Positions 42,859-49,551 of a DNA stretch of 64,000 bases are shown piece by piece. Every line of letters starts with the position of its first letter. The first letter of the stretch is position 1. The position numbers and the translations under genes were made by a program. Under the pieces are notes generated by a model. That model was given only the letters and a program-made list of their open reading frames with translations, was not told where the DNA came from and ran no database searches. The DNA comes from Lentisphaerota bacterium (lineage in GTDB: Bacteria > Verrucomicrobiota > Kiritimatiellia > JAAZAB01), in contig JACPGM010000081.1 in NCBI GenBank assembly GCA_016188985.1, forward strand, positions 1-64,000, given 5' to 3'.

Positions 42859-44253
42859 ATGAAGGTTCTTTTCGTTTATCCTGATATCGGCGTGCGCGGC
42901 GGCGCGCGCAGTTACCAGTTCGGCATCGGGCTCTTGAGCGCGTTGCTCAGGACGCGCGGCCACGCGACCAGTCTATACTACATGTTTGGGGATTATAACC
43001 CCGCGGCGCTCAAGCGCGCGGTCGCCATGTACCAGCCGGGCCTGATCGCGTTCTCGGCAGTCTCGCCGCAGTTTCGGTTCGTGAAACAGATTTTCAAGGA
43101 CTTGGCGCCTTTTCCCGCCTTTACCATTCTGGGCGGACACCACGCCACCTTGGCGCCGGAATGCCTGCAAACCATTGAAGGACTGGATGCAATCTGCATT
43201 GGCGAGGGGGAATATCCGCTTCTGGAACTGGTCGAGACCCTGGAGCGCGGCGGCGAAGCAAGCGCCATTCCCAACCTCTGGGTAAAAACCCGCAACCAAG
43301 GCATTGCCAAAAACGCGACCCGCCCTTTTACCGAAAACTTGGATACGTTGCCGTTTGTGGACCGCGAACTGTTTGATTACCAGGCAATCATTAATTCCGA
43401 TTTCCACACGGCCCAATTCATGTTTTCACGCGGCTGTCCCTACAATTGCACCTTCTGCAGCAACCATGCCCTGCGCGAGCGGCAGGATGGCAAATACGTC
43501 CGGTTCCGCGGCGTGCCGAGCTGCCTCGCTGAAATCCGGGAGGTGACCGGCCGCTACCGCATGCGCGCCCTCTATTTCAATGACGACTGCTTTACCACGC
43601 ACCGGAATTTTGTGGACGAATTCTGCACGCGCTATTCCGAGGAGTTCGCCTTGCCCTTCGCCATTAATGCCCGACCGGAGACGCTGAACGACGACATCTG
43701 CCGTGTGCTCAAAGCCGCCGGCTGCCAGCGCCTCAGTATCGGCATCGAAAGCGGCTCGGAGAGCTTCCGTCAAAAAGTGCTCGGCCGGCGTCAGTCAAAT
43801 GAGCGGATTGTCGCGGCCTTTGCCGCGGCCCGCCGCGCGGGAATCAAGACCAAATCATTTAACATCGTCGGCTTCCCTTACGAGACGCCGGCCATCTTCC
43901 AGGAAACCGTGGACCTCAATGAGCGCATCCAGCCCGACAGCGTCATCATCGGCATCTTTGAGCCCTACCCCGGCACGCGGCTGGCGGAGATATGTTTGCA
44001 AGAGGGTTTCCTTCCCAGCGACCAGCCGGATGCCTGGTTCCTGGGCCGGATGGATACGATCTTGAACATGCCGGCTTTCCCGCGCCGCGCAATTTTGCGC
44101 TGCTTCCGGAATTTTGCGTTTAATGTCTATAAAAAGTCGGCGCCCTTAAAGGCGTTTTTTTATAAAGCGTATTATTCCGCCGCCGGCGAGCGGCTGATCC
44201 GCCTGCTCGCCCCCGTTAAGGATCTCCTGCGCCGCCTGGTGATGGGCGTGTGA
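42859..44253 (+). CDS. B12-binding-domain radical SAM protein
   Basis: MFSRGCPYNCTFCSNHALRERQ; N-terminal cobalamin-binding-like domain; SIGIESGSESFRQKVLGR. Confidence 0.93.
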   Translation: MKVLFVYPDIGVRGGARSYQFGIGLLSALLRTRGHATSLYYMFGDYNPAALKRAVAMYQPGLIAFSAVSPQFRFVKQIFKDLAPFPAFTILGGHHATLAPECLQTIEGLDAICIGEGEYPLLELVETLERGGEASAIPNLWVKTRNQGIAKNATRPFTENLDTLPFVDRELFDYQAIINSDFHTAQFMFSRGCPYNCTFCSNHALRERQDGKYVRFRGVPSCLAEIREVTGRYRMRALYFNDDCFTTHRNFVDEFCTRYSEEFALPFAINARPETLNDDICRVLKAAGCQRLSIGIESGSESFRQKVLGRRQSNERIVAAFAAARRAGIKTKSFNIVGFPYETPAIFQETVDLNERIQPDSVIIGIFEPYPGTRLAEICLQEGFLPSDQPDAWFLGRMDTILNMPAFPRRAILRCFRNFAFNVYKKSAPLKAFFYKAYYSAAGERLIRLLAPVKDLLRRLVMGV

Positions 44254-44327
44254 GGCCGCAAACGGGCTTTGTCAAAACCCCTTTCGTCGAGCGGTATGCG
44301 GAAGCCGCTGGTTTGCCGACACATTTC

Positions 44328-44543
44328 TTATGCTGGCACAGGAGTCAAGCTGAAGACACGAGCCAAGTGGGATGCCCTTTGAATATCGCCGCTGCGTAAG
44401 GCTTCGCGGACATCATCCAATTTATAGGCATCATCCAATGACAAGTAGGGAGACCAGTCATTGTCCGTTTCGATCAATTCGACATCAACCTCGGCCACAT
44501 ACTGGCCTTCATGAATTAATTTTGTGTGGTGCCTTGTGTTCAT
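44328..44543 (-). CDS. Small protein, putative antitoxin partner of the DUF4258-like gene
   Basis: 71 aa MNTRHHTKLIHEGQYVAEVDVELIETDNDWSPYLSLDDAYKLDDVREALRSGDIQRASHLARVFSLTPV; 18 nt downstream of toxin-like gene. Confidence 0.6.
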   Translation of the reverse strand: MNTRHHTKLIHEGQYVAEVDVELIETDNDWSPYLSLDDAYKLDDVREALRSGDIQRASHLARVFSLTPVPA

Positions 44544-44561
44544 TTCTTTCTCCTCATAAAA

Positions 44562-44864
44562 TCACTTGTCCATCGTCTTGAATCCGGCCGGTAGGCTGTT
44601 ACAATCACGGCCGGAGATGTTTGTCCCCTCGGAATCCCCCCAGACCACGTGAATCGGGTTTCCATCGCGGTCCTGTTGCAGGACAAGCACACATGGCCCT
44701 TTCGGAAAGTCCGGATAATCCTCCACTAATCTGCCGTTGGGCACATCTGCCACAATATCCCTGACAAACAGACCTTCTTCGGCTATTCCATCATAGCCGT
44801 GTTCCGATATTCTTATTTTTCCTCTCTGAGCCAGTTGAACGATCCGGCGTAATGTATCACTCAT
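44562..44864 (-). CDS. DUF4258 (RelE-fold/BrnT-like) putative toxin
   Basis: GKIRISEHGYDGIAEEGLFVRDIVADVPNGRLVEDYPDFPKGPCVLVLQQDRDGNPIHVVWG. Confidence 0.7.
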   Translation of the reverse strand: MSDTLRRIVQLAQRGKIRISEHGYDGIAEEGLFVRDIVADVPNGRLVEDYPDFPKGPCVLVLQQDRDGNPIHVVWGDSEGTNISGRDCNSLPAGFKTMDK

Positions 44865-44910
44865 GCCATAATCATAACGTAACAAATATGATTGGCAAAT
44901 CGTTTCTTAT

Positions 44911-44987
44911 GGCCAACACTACTTCTGAGGCGTTCCGAGACCCGTGTCCGCACGGGGCTTGGAATTGCCTCCGGAAGTTTGTTGGGC
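44911..44987 (-). other. attC-like integron recombination site (best example, 77 nt)
   Basis: Minus strand: GCCCAAC-AAACTTCCGGAGGCAATTCCAAGCCCCGTG-CGGA-CACGGGTCTCGGAACGCCTCAGAAGTAGT-GTTGGCC; R'' RYYYAAC exact, R' GTTGGCC, long imperfect stem with bulges; stop codon of the cassette gene lies inside. Confidence 0.75.
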
Positions 44988-45452
44988 TTCGCTTGTACAT
45001 CTGAAAACGTATGTACAGTGGAGATTTGTGCCACCGTCCAGAAAGTACACAGTGACATACTCAGGCGCGTAGTCTCCGGGCTTTGGCTGAAATGGTTGTT
45101 TGTGAAATCCGATGGGTTTGATGACTTCGCCAGATGGAGAGCGCATCTCCGATTTAATGTCTGACGGCAAACCGTTTGTCCAATTGGCAGATTGAAATGC
45201 CTTCTGCGCATACAGTCTCAGCGACGCTGAATTGGTTTTGACGTTTGGCTTGAGTTGATATGTCACATAGACATCACAATGCGAACCGTGAACTGCGACG
45301 GCGCCAATGTGTCGACTGTACATCGAAAGGTCTGGCTCACACTGCCGGAGCAGAGCTTCCTCCTTGATAAAGCGTGCGTTGTCTGGTTCTGTGGCCAAAG
45401 ACACTGTAAGAACAACTGTCCACAACAACAGTACTGTCGTTATCGTTCTCAT
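44919..45452 (-). CDS. Secreted hypothetical protein (cassette gene)
   Basis: MRTITTVLLLWTVVLTVSLATEPDNARFIKEEALLRQCEPDLSMYSRHIGAVAVHGSHCDVYVTYQL. Confidence 0.65.
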   Translation of the reverse strand: MRTITTVLLLWTVVLTVSLATEPDNARFIKEEALLRQCEPDLSMYSRHIGAVAVHGSHCDVYVTYQLKPNVKTNSASLRLYAQKAFQSANWTNGLPSDIKSEMRSPSGEVIKPIGFHKQPFQPKPGDYAPEYVTVYFLDGGTNLHCTYVFRCTSEAQQTSGGNSKPRADTGLGTPQK

Positions 45453-45458
45453 CTTCAA

Positions 45459-45519
45459 ACCCAACGGCGAACTGAGCGCGCGCCGCCTAAGACGGCGCGC
45501 TTGGGTGACGGGCTTAGGC
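45459..45519 (-). other. attC-like site (61 nt, R'' degenerate)
   Basis: Minus strand: GCCTAAGCCCGTCACCCAAGCGCGCCGTCTTAGGCGGCGCGCGCTCAGTTCGCCGTTGGGT; R' GTTGGGT fits GTTRRRY. Confidence 0.55.
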
Positions 45520-45653
45520 GGCTTCCGCCAAAGTTATAGGCGGATGCTACTCTGCGAAGTGGCGAAGCCCCTTCGCTATGACCTTCCTTCGCCCACCGAA
45601 GCGAGGGCTTCGCGAAGGCGGGAGCACGAGTCCGCCTCCGGCATGAAAGCGCC
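45459..45653. repeat. ~190-bp gene-less segment duplicated at 47287-47482, carrying an R1 repeat
   Basis: AACGGCGAACTGAGCGCGCGCCGCCTAAGACGGCGCGCTTG...CACGAGTCCGCCTCCGGCATGAAAGCGCCG in both. Confidence 0.95.
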
Positions 45654-45706
45654 GTTCCCGGCACGCCGCGGGTCAACGGTACGGTGCGACCTCTGGTTCG
45701 ACCTTT

Positions 45707-46192
45707 TTATTTCTTCTTCTGTTGTAATTCTGTTCGGAGTATACGCATGTATTCTTCGTGGGTGTATGTGACCGTCACAGGTTTGCCCTTGTCATCAAGT
45801 CTCCATTCTGAATAGTTTTCCTGAATCGGGCGCATGCCCATCGGCCCTTGAAAGAGCCAATATTCTTTATTCTTATAAGGATCGTGCAGAAAGATAAGAA
45901 AATCTTTTCCAACTAAATCTGCCAATGTCTCTACTTCTAGATGCGCATACATATGGGAACGAAAATCTACCGTAGTTTCACCCTCCCCCTTGAAAAGTTC
46001 TTTAATCTTCGCTTTTATCACACAATATGACATGGGATTAGCGGTATCAGACGGCTTTACAACCTGTGCAACAGTGATTCTCGCAATGACACACGCTCGC
46101 TCCAACTTTTCAGATAGAGTGAACAAGACTGAGGTAGCATGCGTAGTAAATGGGAAAACTAATAATGAAAGTATAAGTATGTTTCTTTTCAT
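45707..46192 (-). CDS. Secreted hypothetical protein (cassette gene)
   Basis: MKRNILILSLLVFPFTTHATSVLFTLSEKLERACVIARITVAQVVKPSDTANPMSYCVIKAKIKELFKGE. Confidence 0.65.
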   Translation of the reverse strand: MKRNILILSLLVFPFTTHATSVLFTLSEKLERACVIARITVAQVVKPSDTANPMSYCVIKAKIKELFKGEGETTVDFRSHMYAHLEVETLADLVGKDFLIFLHDPYKNKEYWLFQGPMGMRPIQENYSEWRLDDKGKPVTVTYTHEEYMRILRTELQQKKK

Positions 46193-46200
46193 GTCTTTGG

Positions 46201-46267
46201 GTCTAACGGCATGAGTCACGGTTTTGGCGCGATAGCGACAAATACCGTGCGCTCATTTGTGCGCAAC
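46201..46267 (-). other. attC-like site (~67 nt)
   Basis: Minus strand ends ...GCCAAAACCGTGACTCATGCC-GTTAGAC (R' exact GTTRRRY); stem GAGcgCACGGTaTTTGtcGC / GCgcCAAAaCCGTGaCTC; R'' degenerate. Confidence 0.6.
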
Positions 46268-46306
46268 TCTTCCATACTTCAACAATTGTGGAAATGAGGA
46301 AGACAA

Positions 46307-46624
46307 TCACGCGCGCTTCGCGCGCACGCTCTCCACCCATTCCTCAACCGTGATGAGAATTCTCAGTACCTTGCGATCCTTTATCCAATACTCTTTGGTC
46401 CTACCCTTGGTCTCGTATCGAATCACATCCATCTGCCGAAGATGACGCAAGGTCATGGAAATCGTCGTCAGGGGGATATGCAAGGCAGTGCTCAGATCGC
46501 CGGGGGTCTTGCGGCTTGTGTCCAGGCAGCGCAGGATGAGATAGGCCGTCGGATTCCCCAGAACTCGACAACACCGTGAAGCCCGGTACATCGTCTCCGG
46601 CATATTCTGTTTCGTTATTCCCAT
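46307..46624 (-). CDS. ArsR-like winged-helix transcriptional regulator
   Basis: ASRCCRVLGNPTAYLILRCLDTSRKTPGDLSTALHIPLTTISMTLRHLRQMDVIRYETKGRTKEYWIKD. Confidence 0.8.
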   Translation of the reverse strand: MGITKQNMPETMYRASRCCRVLGNPTAYLILRCLDTSRKTPGDLSTALHIPLTTISMTLRHLRQMDVIRYETKGRTKEYWIKDRKVLRILITVEEWVESVRAKRA

Positions 46625-46645
46625 AACCCCCCGCCACCTCCACTA

Positions 46646-46677
46646 TTCCACACTTCAACAATTGTGGAAGTGTGGAA
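46646..46677. promoter_or_regulatory. 32-bp palindromic putative operator upstream of the ArsR-like gene; diverged second copy at 46270-46301
   Basis: TTCCACACTTCAACAATTGTGGAAGTGTGGAA (one mismatched pair). Confidence 0.6.
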
Positions 46678-46699
46678 GGTTCTTGTCAAGTCAGCCTAT

Positions 46700-46755
46700 T
46701 GCGAACGATTGAGCTAAAGCGCGGTTCACCGCGCGCCTTCAGCTTCTTGTTCGGT
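46700..46755 (-). other. attC-like site (56 nt)
   Basis: Minus strand: ACCGAAC-AAGAAGCTGAAGGCGCGCGG-TGAA-CCGCGCTTTAGCTCAATC-GTTCGCA; CGAAC/GTTCG pair, bulged stem; cassette stop codon inside. Confidence 0.65.
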
Positions 46756-47274
46756 AATCTCTTGTTTTCTGATTGCCCTTGGCAGAGACACCGCCATCAA
46801 GCTGCCGACTGTGAAAAAGAGCAATCCAAATCCCGGAAGGAACCATGATTGTCCTTTCAGTCCGGGCTCTAACAAACACTCCTCCGGGTTGCCTGGCAGG
46901 TAATACACGGTAACGCTCTTGCCTTTGGGATATCGGTTTACGATGCGCCGCGCATGCGACGGATTGCTGGAGCCATAGTCTCCGTAGGCAACACGATTAC
47001 CGCTGAAAGTAGTGTCGTTGACACTGAAGTCATACATGACTTCGGCGTGATAGGTGCCACTCCCCTCATCACTATCCTGATACTCTACTGAAGATGCCAC
47101 AACTCTGCCTTGAGTAGCGGGCCAATCCACACTGGCCTTAGCTCGGATGAGGCCACGAACACCAAAGAAGGCAACGCTTGCGCCAACCACGACAAAGATG
47201 AGTGGAAAAATCCGTGAGAAGAAGAATCTCATTCCCGGGGACATTTGCTTTGACGATGATGAAGATATTCTCAT
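46726..47274 (-). CDS. DUF3592 domain membrane protein (cassette gene)
   Basis: GRVVASSVEYQDSDEGSGTYHAEVMYDFSVNDTTFSGNRVAYGD...RYPKGKSVTVYYLPGNPEECLLEPG. Confidence 0.8.
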   Translation of the reverse strand: MRISSSSSKQMSPGMRFFFSRIFPLIFVVVGASVAFFGVRGLIRAKASVDWPATQGRVVASSVEYQDSDEGSGTYHAEVMYDFSVNDTTFSGNRVAYGDYGSSNPSHARRIVNRYPKGKSVTVYYLPGNPEECLLEPGLKGQSWFLPGFGLLFFTVGSLMAVSLPRAIRKQEITEQEAEGAR

Positions 47275-47286
47275 TATTCTCCTTTC

Positions 47287-47347
47287 ACGGAACGGCGAAC
47301 TGAGCGCGCGCCGCCTAAGACGGCGCGCTTGCACGACTTGCTTAGGC
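47287..47347 (-). other. attC-like site, duplicate of 45459-45519 with different R'
   Basis: Minus strand: GCCTAAGCAAGTCGTGCAAGCGCGCCGTCTTAGGCGGCGCGCGCTCAGTTCGCCGTTCCGT; homology between the two copies breaks right after GTT. Confidence 0.5.
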
Positions 47348-47489
47348 GGCTTCCGCCAAAGTTATAGGCGGATGCTACTCTGCGAAGTGGCGAAGCCCCT
47401 TCGCTATGACCTTCCTTCGCCCACCGAAGCGAGGGCTTCGCGAAGGCGGGAGCACGAGTCCGCCTCCGGCATGAAAGCGCCGGGCGTGT

Positions 47490-47549
47490 CGGAAACGTGA
47501 CGGTTCAGCTACCGAGCGGGGCGAGGTAGGCTGAAACCGGTGGTTAGGC
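47490..47549 (-). other. attC-like site (60 nt) after BrnA-like gene
   Basis: Minus strand: GCCTAAC-CACC-GGTTTCAGCCTACC-TCGCCCCGCTC-GGTAGCTGAACC-GTCAC-GTTTCCG; R'' exact, stem with extrahelical bases, R' degenerate after GTT. Confidence 0.6.
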
Positions 47550-47828
47550 ATTTCTTCTTTCTCTCAGCACGCCGCGAAGATATTTATGCAAGATGCTCGA
47601 AATCAGCGTTTGATAGGGCAGGCCCTCCTCGATCGCCTTGGTTTGGATGCCAACCAGATCGCGTTCCGCCAAGCGGATGTTTATCCGCTTGTTTTTCTGG
47701 AGAGTATTACGGGAATACTGCTGCAATTTGGCGATTTCCGACCTTCCGTTTCTTGCCGGACGCCATTCGTTACGCTCGTATGACGCCAGTATGTCTCTTT
47801 CTTCCGAATCCATTGTCTGCTTTTTCAT
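47544..47828 (-). CDS. BrnA/CopG-type antitoxin
   Basis: KNKRINIRLAERDLVGIQTKAIEEGLPYQTLISSILHKYLRG. Confidence 0.8.
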   Translation of the reverse strand: MKKQTMDSEERDILASYERNEWRPARNGRSEIAKLQQYSRNTLQKNKRINIRLAERDLVGIQTKAIEEGLPYQTLISSILHKYLRGVLRERRNA

Positions 47829-48103
47829 TTTCCCCTCCTCAAATATTTCTTCGTCGCTTTTCGGCTCGGAATAATTGTTTTCAGAAAAACACCTTCTTCA
47901 TCGTCCACATAAGGGACGAGGCAGGCGTATTCATCTATTTCGACTATCGCCATCTTTTGTCTGGGATATTTTCTTTGGTCAGGGTGATCCATAACTTCCA
48001 AGACTTGCCCTTGCTCGAACAGAACGGCGACTTGTTCAAATCCCACTCCGCGATTCTGTTTTAACCATTCATTTTTCCGTTCATCCCACCGGATGTTTTT
48101 CAT
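47825..48103 (-). CDS. BrnT-like toxin
   Basis: MKNIRWDERKNEWLKQNRGVGFEQVAVLFEQGQVLEVMDHPDQRKYPRQKMAIVEIDEYACLVPYVDDEEGVFLKTIIPSRKATKKYLRRGK; overlaps the antitoxin start. Confidence 0.8.
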   Translation of the reverse strand: MKNIRWDERKNEWLKQNRGVGFEQVAVLFEQGQVLEVMDHPDQRKYPRQKMAIVEIDEYACLVPYVDDEEGVFLKTIIPSRKATKKYLRRGK

Positions 48104-48133
48104 AAGGACAATATACGGCATAGTATGCCGTTT

Positions 48134-48189
48134 GTCAACACATCGGCTTCATTCGTCTTCACTTATTTTCTGCCGAACATGTGTTAGAC
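48134..48189 (-). other. attC-like hairpin upstream of the BrnT/BrnA cassette (56 nt)
   Basis: Minus strand: GTCTAAC-ACATgttCGGC-...-GCCGATGT-GTTGAC; R'' exact. Confidence 0.45.
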
Positions 48190-48191
48190 GT

Positions 48192-48217
48192 AATTATCAT
48201 ATTGCAATATGATAATT
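48192..48217. repeat. 26-bp perfect AT-rich palindrome AATTATCATATTGCAATATGATAATT
   Basis: Direct reading; 2 nt from the GTTAGAC box. Confidence 0.9.
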
Positions 48218-48519
48218 CTAGATAGTATAAACAATGGGCAGAAACAATAATTGCCTTTTTTAAAATCGTATGTCTGGTTTTGATGAAGGTCAACGATAAA
48301 ACAACGGAAAATTTCTGGCAGGCCTGCCAATCCTGCGTGAAAACGCAACGCGTCACCACCGCTCATGCTCTTATAAAGCTGTGAAACAATAGAAAATCAT
48401 CGCGCCGGCGGGGCGGCGCTCCTACAAAAACCCATGATAGACGGGAAAATGTAGGAACCGAGCCCCACCTCGGCGATCTTCGGCAATTTTTTCACGCGTT
48501 CTCAGTAAGAATACGGCTC

Positions 48520-49551
48520 ATGAAACACGCAGGTCGCTACACGGTGGTCGCGGTAGGGACTCTCCTGGTGGCTTTCGTCTGCGCCGCGGGTCTGTTCGCG
48601 TGGCGGCTGAGGGAAGCGCGCCAGATACGCGAAGTGCCCGTTCTGATGTATCATAAAATCGGCGCGGTCACCGACAATGCCTGGTGGGTGCCGACTGATG
48701 TCTTTGAGCGCCAACTGCGGGCCTTGTATTTTCAGGGTTATGCCACCATCCTGCCCGCGGATCTCGTGCACCACCACAAGACCGGCAAACGACTGCCGAG
48801 CAAGCCAGTGCTGATCACCTTTGATGACGGCTATCGCGACAGCCTTGCCACTGCTGAACCGCTGCTGAAAAAATACGGCTTCCAAGCCGTGGTTTTCCTG
48901 CCCACCGCCTTCATCGCCGAAACGCCCGAAACCCGCCGGTCGTTCGAAGGCCAGAGCTGCCTGATCTGGCCGGAAGTCAAGGCCATGCAGGAACGCAGGA
49001 CCTTTGTCTTCGGCGGGCACAGCCACCGGCACGAGAATCTAATCGTCGCAGGCGATGCCGAGGCCGATATCCGGGAATGTTTCGATCAGTTGCGCCGGCA
49101 CGCGATCCGGCAACCTTTTGCGTTCTGTTATCCGCATGGCGAATACAATGCCCAAACAACCGCCGCCGTCAAACGCGCCGGGTTCCAGTGCGCTTTTGGC
49201 TGCGAGGACCGGGTGGCCCAAACCGGCCGAACGAATAATCTGCTGGAGCTGCCGCGGGTGTCGGTCATGGGCGGAAGACATGATTTCAGGGTTAGCAATC
49301 AAACCTGGGCCAAGAGAACTGATTTCACCCTGAATGTCCATCACGAGGGCATCCCGATTGAAGTCAGTCCGCGTCTGGTGGTGAGCGGCGCGGTTGCGGA
49401 TCAAGGCTGGCTACCGGCAGTGGAAGTCGGCAATGCCAATTACGAATGGCGCTGGCCACGGCCGGCAGCGCAAAGCAAACCGCTGCCGCCGCTGCGCCTG
49501 GAAATCTGGGACAAACACCGGTTGTTTTTACTGTGGTCAGAAAAACTGTGA
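48520..49551 (+). CDS. Membrane-anchored polysaccharide deacetylase (NodB) family protein
   Basis: VPVLMYHKIGAV...KPVLITFDDGYRDSLATAEPLLKKYGFQAVVFLPTAF...FGGHSHRHENL. Confidence 0.9.
   Translation: MKHAGRYTVVAVGTLLVAFVCAAGLFAWRLREARQIREVPVLMYHKIGAVTDNAWWVPTDVFERQLRALYFQGYATILPADLVHHHKTGKRLPSKPVLITFDDGYRDSLATAEPLLKKYGFQAVVFLPTAFIAETPETRRSFEGQSCLIWPEVKAMQERRTFVFGGHSHRHENLIVAGDAEADIRECFDQLRRHAIRQPFAFCYPHGEYNAQTTAAVKRAGFQCAFGCEDRVAQTGRTNNLLELPRVSVMGGRHDFRVSNQTWAKRTDFTLNVHHEGIPIEVSPRLVVSGAVADQGWLPAVEVGNANYEWRWPRPAAQSKPLPPLRLEIWDKHRLFLLWSEKL

Follow-up and report, generated by a model that had tools for sequence, protein, structure and literature searches.

The window, by which we mean the whole 64-kb stretch of DNA analysed, contains a compact series of small genes and recombination-site-like elements between a radical-SAM gene, whose stop codon lies at 44253, and a polysaccharide deacetylase gene at 48520. 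The preliminary description of this series offered two readings, namely a cluster of attC sites lacking an integron-integrase (CALIN; IntegronFinder 2, PMC9024848) or the remnant of a chromosomal integron. Listed from the head of the array to its far end, with scores from covariance model R1 (see below) where they apply, the features are as follows:

48283-48384, plus strand: truncated intI, 33 codons and then a stop, the first ~28 being homologous to the IntI of contig C80
48265-48293, minus strand: putative cassette promoter Pc, TTGACC-17-TACGAT, with its -35 box overlapping intI codons 3-4
48172-48236, minus strand: attI, with the core G^TT at 48176-48178 (GTTCGGC on the minus strand) and the palindrome CATATTGCAATATG at 48198-48211
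48138-48110, minus strand: own promoter of the brnTA pair, TTGACA-17-TATATT
47544-48121, minus strand: cassette 1, BrnT-like toxin gene (47825-48121, start probably at 48103) and CopG/BrnA-like antitoxin gene (47544-47828)
47490-47549, minus strand: weak attC of cassette 1, R1 13.4 bits, R' box poor
47287-47489, minus strand: cassette 2, ORF-less, ending in the type B attC-like site 47287-47347
46726-47334, minus strand: cassette 3, DUF3592 membrane protein gene, start probably at 47274
46700-46755, minus strand: attC of cassette 3, R1 22.5 bits
46307-46624, minus strand: cassette 4, ArsR-type regulator gene
46201-46267, minus strand: attC of cassette 4, R1 24.4 bits
45707-46219, minus strand: cassette 5, secreted hypothetical protein gene without Pfam family, start probably at 46192
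45660-45702, minus strand: degenerate, shortened attC of cassette 5, R1 10.9 bits, absent from the preliminary description
45459-45655, minus strand: cassette 6, ORF-less, ending in the type B attC-like site 45459-45519
44919-45464, minus strand: cassette 7, secreted hypothetical protein gene, its stop codon within its own attC
44911-44987, minus strand: attC of cassette 7, R1 33.8 bits (E=1e-6), the best site in the window and also found by an independent geometry scan
44328-44885, minus strand: cassette 8, DUF4258 protein gene (44562-44885) and a small partner (44328-44543)
44257-44317, minus strand: possible terminal attC of the array, decayed, 7.9 bits with only the R boxes retained, beside the radical-SAM stop codon

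Eight small genes on a single strand had been proposed, and eight are present, spanning 44328-48121 on the minus strand. Regarding their identities, DUF4258 (E=2.5e-12), DUF3592 (E=1.9e-18) and BrnT (E=1.8e-9) match above the Pfam cut-off, the HTH_5/ArsR match lies exactly at the cut-off, and the CopG antitoxin in the position of BrnA falls under it, while no credible Pfam match was obtained for three of the eight proteins, namely the two secreted ones and the small partner of the DUF4258 protein. A near-perfect 16-nt inverted repeat is located just upstream of the ArsR-like gene (46646-46677), with a second, partial copy behind it (46266-46302), and together these repeats likely constitute the operator of that regulator.

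Sites of the attC type were sought with R1, a model of 48 positions with shortened loops, trained on four C80 sites and two from the sister species G002; these come from intact integrons of the window's own genome and of that species, and no window sequence was included. A covariance model was chosen because a geometry scanner misses sites with an altered R'' box (one requiring AAC...GTT and a fixed stem geometry returned only two window sites), and training was kept within the genus because strict scans of distant integron loci gave mostly implausible sites. The best C80 attC folds with R''/R' pairing, a 5-bp stem, an asymmetric CG/A step and a second stem. Within the 167 kb searched (with E-values that are rough), R1 returned five window matches (three clear, two weak); every one is on the predicted minus strand and at a gene junction in the ~4-kb array, while the rest of the window gave none even at E=10. 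Were the five placed at random, the probability of finding all of them in the array on one strand would be ~3e-8. In 107 kb of control loci, R1 matches are confined to two further integron arrays. An Rfam scan returned two tRNAs only, with no attC-like family above threshold. Seven junction hairpins had been put forward as attC sites; among these, R1 recovers 44911-44987, 46201-46267 and 46700-46755 clearly and 47490-47549 weakly, but not 45459-45519 (no match listed), 47287-47347 (4.5 bits) or 48134-48189, which is the junction of attI and cassette 1. The placement of stop codons within hairpins, proposed for several junctions, is seen for the gene at 44919-45464.

The sites at 45459-45519 and 47287-47347, neither of which adopts a canonical attC fold, both lie inside a 192-nt unit of which there are two copies, 97% identical (45459-45655 and within 47287-47489). 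The copies begin to diverge on the 3' side directly after GTT, the cleavage point of IntI, but no core site marks their 5' start, and the GTT edge is therefore one-sided. One more genomic copy of the attC-like part lies at C105:645-706, inside another orphan array, and a shortened type B form sits directly at the attI of G008:C115; type B sites are the only element common to different arrays within the window's genome. Judged by sequence, type B may perhaps represent a divergent type of attC. Upstream, the unit includes repeats that occur genome-wide (37 matches), and the notion that the ORF-less unit is purely such a repeat was rejected, as the full unit occurs only twice, both times in the window array. 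ORF-less repeat cassettes extend beyond the window, since contig C80 holds two of ~250-310 bp that are 80% identical to each other.

The head of the array aligns with that of the intact integron on C80. Specifically, blastn matched window positions 48174-48368 to the C80 attI, intI promoter region and intI start over 202 nt at 64% identity (E=2.5e-11), and the alignment, which falls exactly at the array edge, scores 59.7 bits as against 28.3 for the best of 40 dinucleotide-shuffled windows. In the coding part of the remnant MKVNDKTTENFWQACQSCVKTQRVTTAHA stands against MNVNENSDVFWKAYQACVEEHKIDPAHA; beyond this point there is no further homology, and a stop codon closes the frame at 48384. Approximately 28 of 442 intI codons are thus left in cis, and by alignment a putative attI lies between them and the first cassette. 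This attI, predicted from sequence, was aligned with its counterparts at three intact integrons and at five orphan loci. In the 3.09 Mb searched, exact copies of the palindrome ATATTGCAATAT occur only at the window attI and the C80 attI, whereas the C105 attI and one unrelated place have single-mismatch copies; around a palindrome match on contig C163 there is no integron. A role for the palindrome as a general regulatory box (e.g., SOS) was rejected, given that exact copies are found at two integron heads only. The statement that no tyrosine recombinase is visible in the window accordingly holds for intact genes, but overlooks the truncated intI that begins at 48283.

Two promoters are predicted at the head. 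The first belongs to the brnT cassette, where the left 'GTTGACA' of 48134-48189 proves to be a -35 box (11/12 matches) and the right half of that stretch to be attI, such that the seventh proposed attC is lost. The spacer of this promoter is a palindrome, which would fit an autoregulated toxin-antitoxin pair. The second, the putative Pc, has 9/12 matches, a score within shuffle expectation by itself; nevertheless, all nine aligned loci carry on the cassette strand TTGAC[A/C/G] at intI codons 3-4, a 17-nt spacing and a TA-type -10 box, and the TTGAC-17-TA arrangement is kept even at C38, where the start codon is gone. We hypothesize that this Pc, overlapping the first intI codons, serves as the cassette promoter; its lone score lies within shuffle expectation, and where intI is intact the -35 box is accounted for by constraint on the coding sequence. 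If correct, the position of the -35 box in codons 3-4 would explain why aligned stubs keep at least ~5 codons.

A search of the rest of the genome for intI revealed a full IntI on another contig. A single integron integrase is recognized by TIGR02249 (C80:7498-8826, 442 residues, 476.6 bits against a cut-off of 265), with its frame intact; its alignment with the solved structure of the Vibrio integrase IntI4 (2A3V) has E=4e-87, inspection shows the catalytic residues R, H-x-x-R, H and Y in place, and ~125 extra residues are present at its N-terminus. Integrases of similar length and 45-63% identity are found in gamma- and deltaproteobacterial MAGs. The gene forms part of an intact integron (C80:1-8826) with a clear minus-strand series of at least nine attC sites. 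The genome is a draft of 173 contigs, 86% complete, in which C80, C105 and the window belong to different contigs, and it is possible that C80 entered it through a binning error, though the close integrase versions in two family members (G002 and G008, 91-92% identical to C80 IntI) speak against this.

Additional recombinase-like and attC-like sequences were encountered. The recombinase at C105:27820-28623 was rejected as an IntI, since it skips approximately positions 191-221 of TIGR02249 and scores below the cut-off; by its sequence it looks XerC/D-like. C-terminal IntI-like fragments lie exactly at contig ends (G002:C18:1-144, G002:C27:1-144, G005:C82:3-143 and G009:C25:1-150) and may be repeated recombinase genes that the assembly left unresolved. 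The window's own genome (G000) has four further attC matches on one strand within 8 kb, with no IntI match (C151:25614-33487), which constitute another CALIN; the genome-wide attC list is a lower bound, as 150 of 465 candidates were scored and the window sites were left out.

When the heads of C80 and of the window were used as DNA queries, further heads of the same kind were recovered in a family comprising G000, G001 (same genus), G002 and G008:

G000:C105:1116-1255: orphan head, ~8 intI codons
G001:C287: orphan head, 22 intI codons
G002:C66: orphan head, ~9 intI codons, attI core altered
G002:C38: orphan head, ~5 intI codons, start codon destroyed
G008:C115: orphan head, ~8 intI codons
G008:C36: short attI-only match, 0 intI codons

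Matches to attC lie on the cassette side at C287, C66, C38, C115 and C105. The C105 array (1-1255) contains a retropepsin-like cassette, a toxin-antitoxin-like pair, and both type B and canonical attC sites, with a VapBC-like pair just behind the stub. Collectively, attI-like heads carry a full intI at three loci, 0-22 codons at six and 28 in the window, with no intermediates. In G002, three contigs, one with the intact integron (C34) and two with orphan arrays (C66 and C38), end in the same ~125-nt cassette start, identical in all three, with its edge exactly at G^TT and behind three different attC sites; the shared stretch stops at the contig ends, at about assembler-word length, and the existence of several copies, or of population variants, was inferred from branching and not read through. 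These sequences suggest that one cassette is present in all three G002 arrays and may have been exchanged in trans. The C80 integrase may be able to excise or insert cassettes at the window array in trans; the sequence of the window attI differs from that of the C80 attI.

Comparison with relatives bears on the history of the locus. In G001 the flanking radical-SAM and deacetylase genes are adjacent, ~410 nt apart and without cassettes, and in G003 the gene content beyond the radical-SAM gene is different. Hence the array does not represent a conserved operon, and the stable gene order in relatives that would have spoken against an integron is not seen. Cassette gain at this locus and loss in G001 are both compatible with the comparison.

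The cassette array is genuine: approximately eight minus-strand cassettes with at least three clear attC sites are headed by attI and then by ~28 intI codons. The CALIN label applies formally, with at least two attC sites and no intact integrase in cis, and the alternative of a chromosomal integron remnant is the right one, given that attI and the 5' end of intI head the array. We consider it very probable that 44255-48384 is a decayed chromosomal integron with a preserved attI and a 5' intI remnant, the points against being the two proposed sites and the left array end that have no canonical attC. In the sequence of events we envisage, an integrase would once have captured cassettes at the window attI; the body of intI would later have been deleted, up to the region before the deacetylase gene; and attI and the cassette promoter overlapping the first intI codons would have been kept, such that the cassettes could still be transcribed, with the brnTA pair in first position probably transcribed from its own promoter. 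We infer deletion in place, rather than observing it, because none of the relatives compared was found to carry a full intI at the corresponding position.

Three other origins deserve consideration. An improbable one is that intI start, attI and cassettes were copied or moved as a block, the integrase body never having been present here and the stubs reflecting dispersal. The distribution of intI lengths (six loci with 0-28 codons, three of full length and none between) would agree with such a move, as would the adjacency of the flanking genes in G001, but stub ends vary by locus, neither a shared terminal sequence nor a duplicated target was apparent, and trimming to a selected promoter accounts equally well for short stubs. 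Less probable still, and in our estimation very unlikely, is a CALIN formed by off-target (attG-type) insertion through the C80 integrase, with no integrase ever at the locus. Although off-target insertion is a proposed origin of CALINs (PMC8618304), the array is absent from the G001 locus and an intact IntI exists in the genome, it leaves unexplained why attI, the integrase promoter region and 28 intI codons stand in the right order at the head, and is contradicted by the intI remnant unless this moved in together with attI. Finally, an ordinary operon of small genes whose palindromic repeats or terminators were taken for attC, which could draw on the genome-wide repeats in the ORF-less unit and on the two foldless sites, is negligible in the face of R1 matches specific to integron arrays, attI and the intI remnant at the head, and the absence of the array from the same locus in G001.

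Building upon the decayed integron favored here, it is tempting, if doubtful, to speculate that the family harbors a distributed integron, in which one integrase locus would keep several scattered attI-headed arrays active in trans and the orphans would be selected for attI and Pc. Were this the case, such selection would account for stubs that end shortly behind the codons of the Pc -35 box.

The origin of integrase-less cassette clusters is an open question with three proposed answers, namely off-target insertion, intI loss and rearrangement (PMC8618304). In the window the survival of attI and of the first codons of intI makes the origin legible, and remnants of this type indicate that integrase-less arrays can arise through integrase loss. 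Searches for intI and attC alone overlook attI-headed remnants. With intact and orphan copies side by side, the family G000, G001, G002 and G008 would allow one to ask if a single integrase serves many attI docks, and if selection maintains Pc once intI is gone. Taken by itself, the window array adds a further example to a class already described; what stands out is that heads like this one turn up repeatedly across the family, and the open-access literature searched yielded no description of several attI-headed orphan arrays beside one intact integron.

Several characteristics are shared with known systems. Firstly, as in a CALIN, at least two same-strand attC sites lie within 4 kb with no intact intI beside them, and the cargo consists of toxin-antitoxin and hypothetical genes; unlike a CALIN, the window keeps attI and the start of intI, parts that lie outside a CALIN call. 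Secondly, Xanthomonas contains many arrays in which intI is deleted or truncated, and CALINs can be mobilised in trans (PMC12444791). Arrays likewise persist after truncation or deletion of intI in both cases, and some Xanthomonas genomes hold several arrays (PMC12444791), but these trace to one ancestral place beside ilvD, whereas here attI-like heads lie at several unrelated places alongside one intact integron. Lastly, the Pc of class 1 integrons is located within intI1 and drives transcription in the direction opposite to that of the integrase promoter (PMC8876359), and the present locus resembles these integrons in that intI and cassettes are divergent with attI between, and in a putative Pc within intI directed towards the cassettes; it departs from them in the position of the putative Pc at intI codons 3-4, the palindrome in attI and the truncation of the window intI, as well as in the ~125-residue N-terminal extension of the intact IntI on C80.
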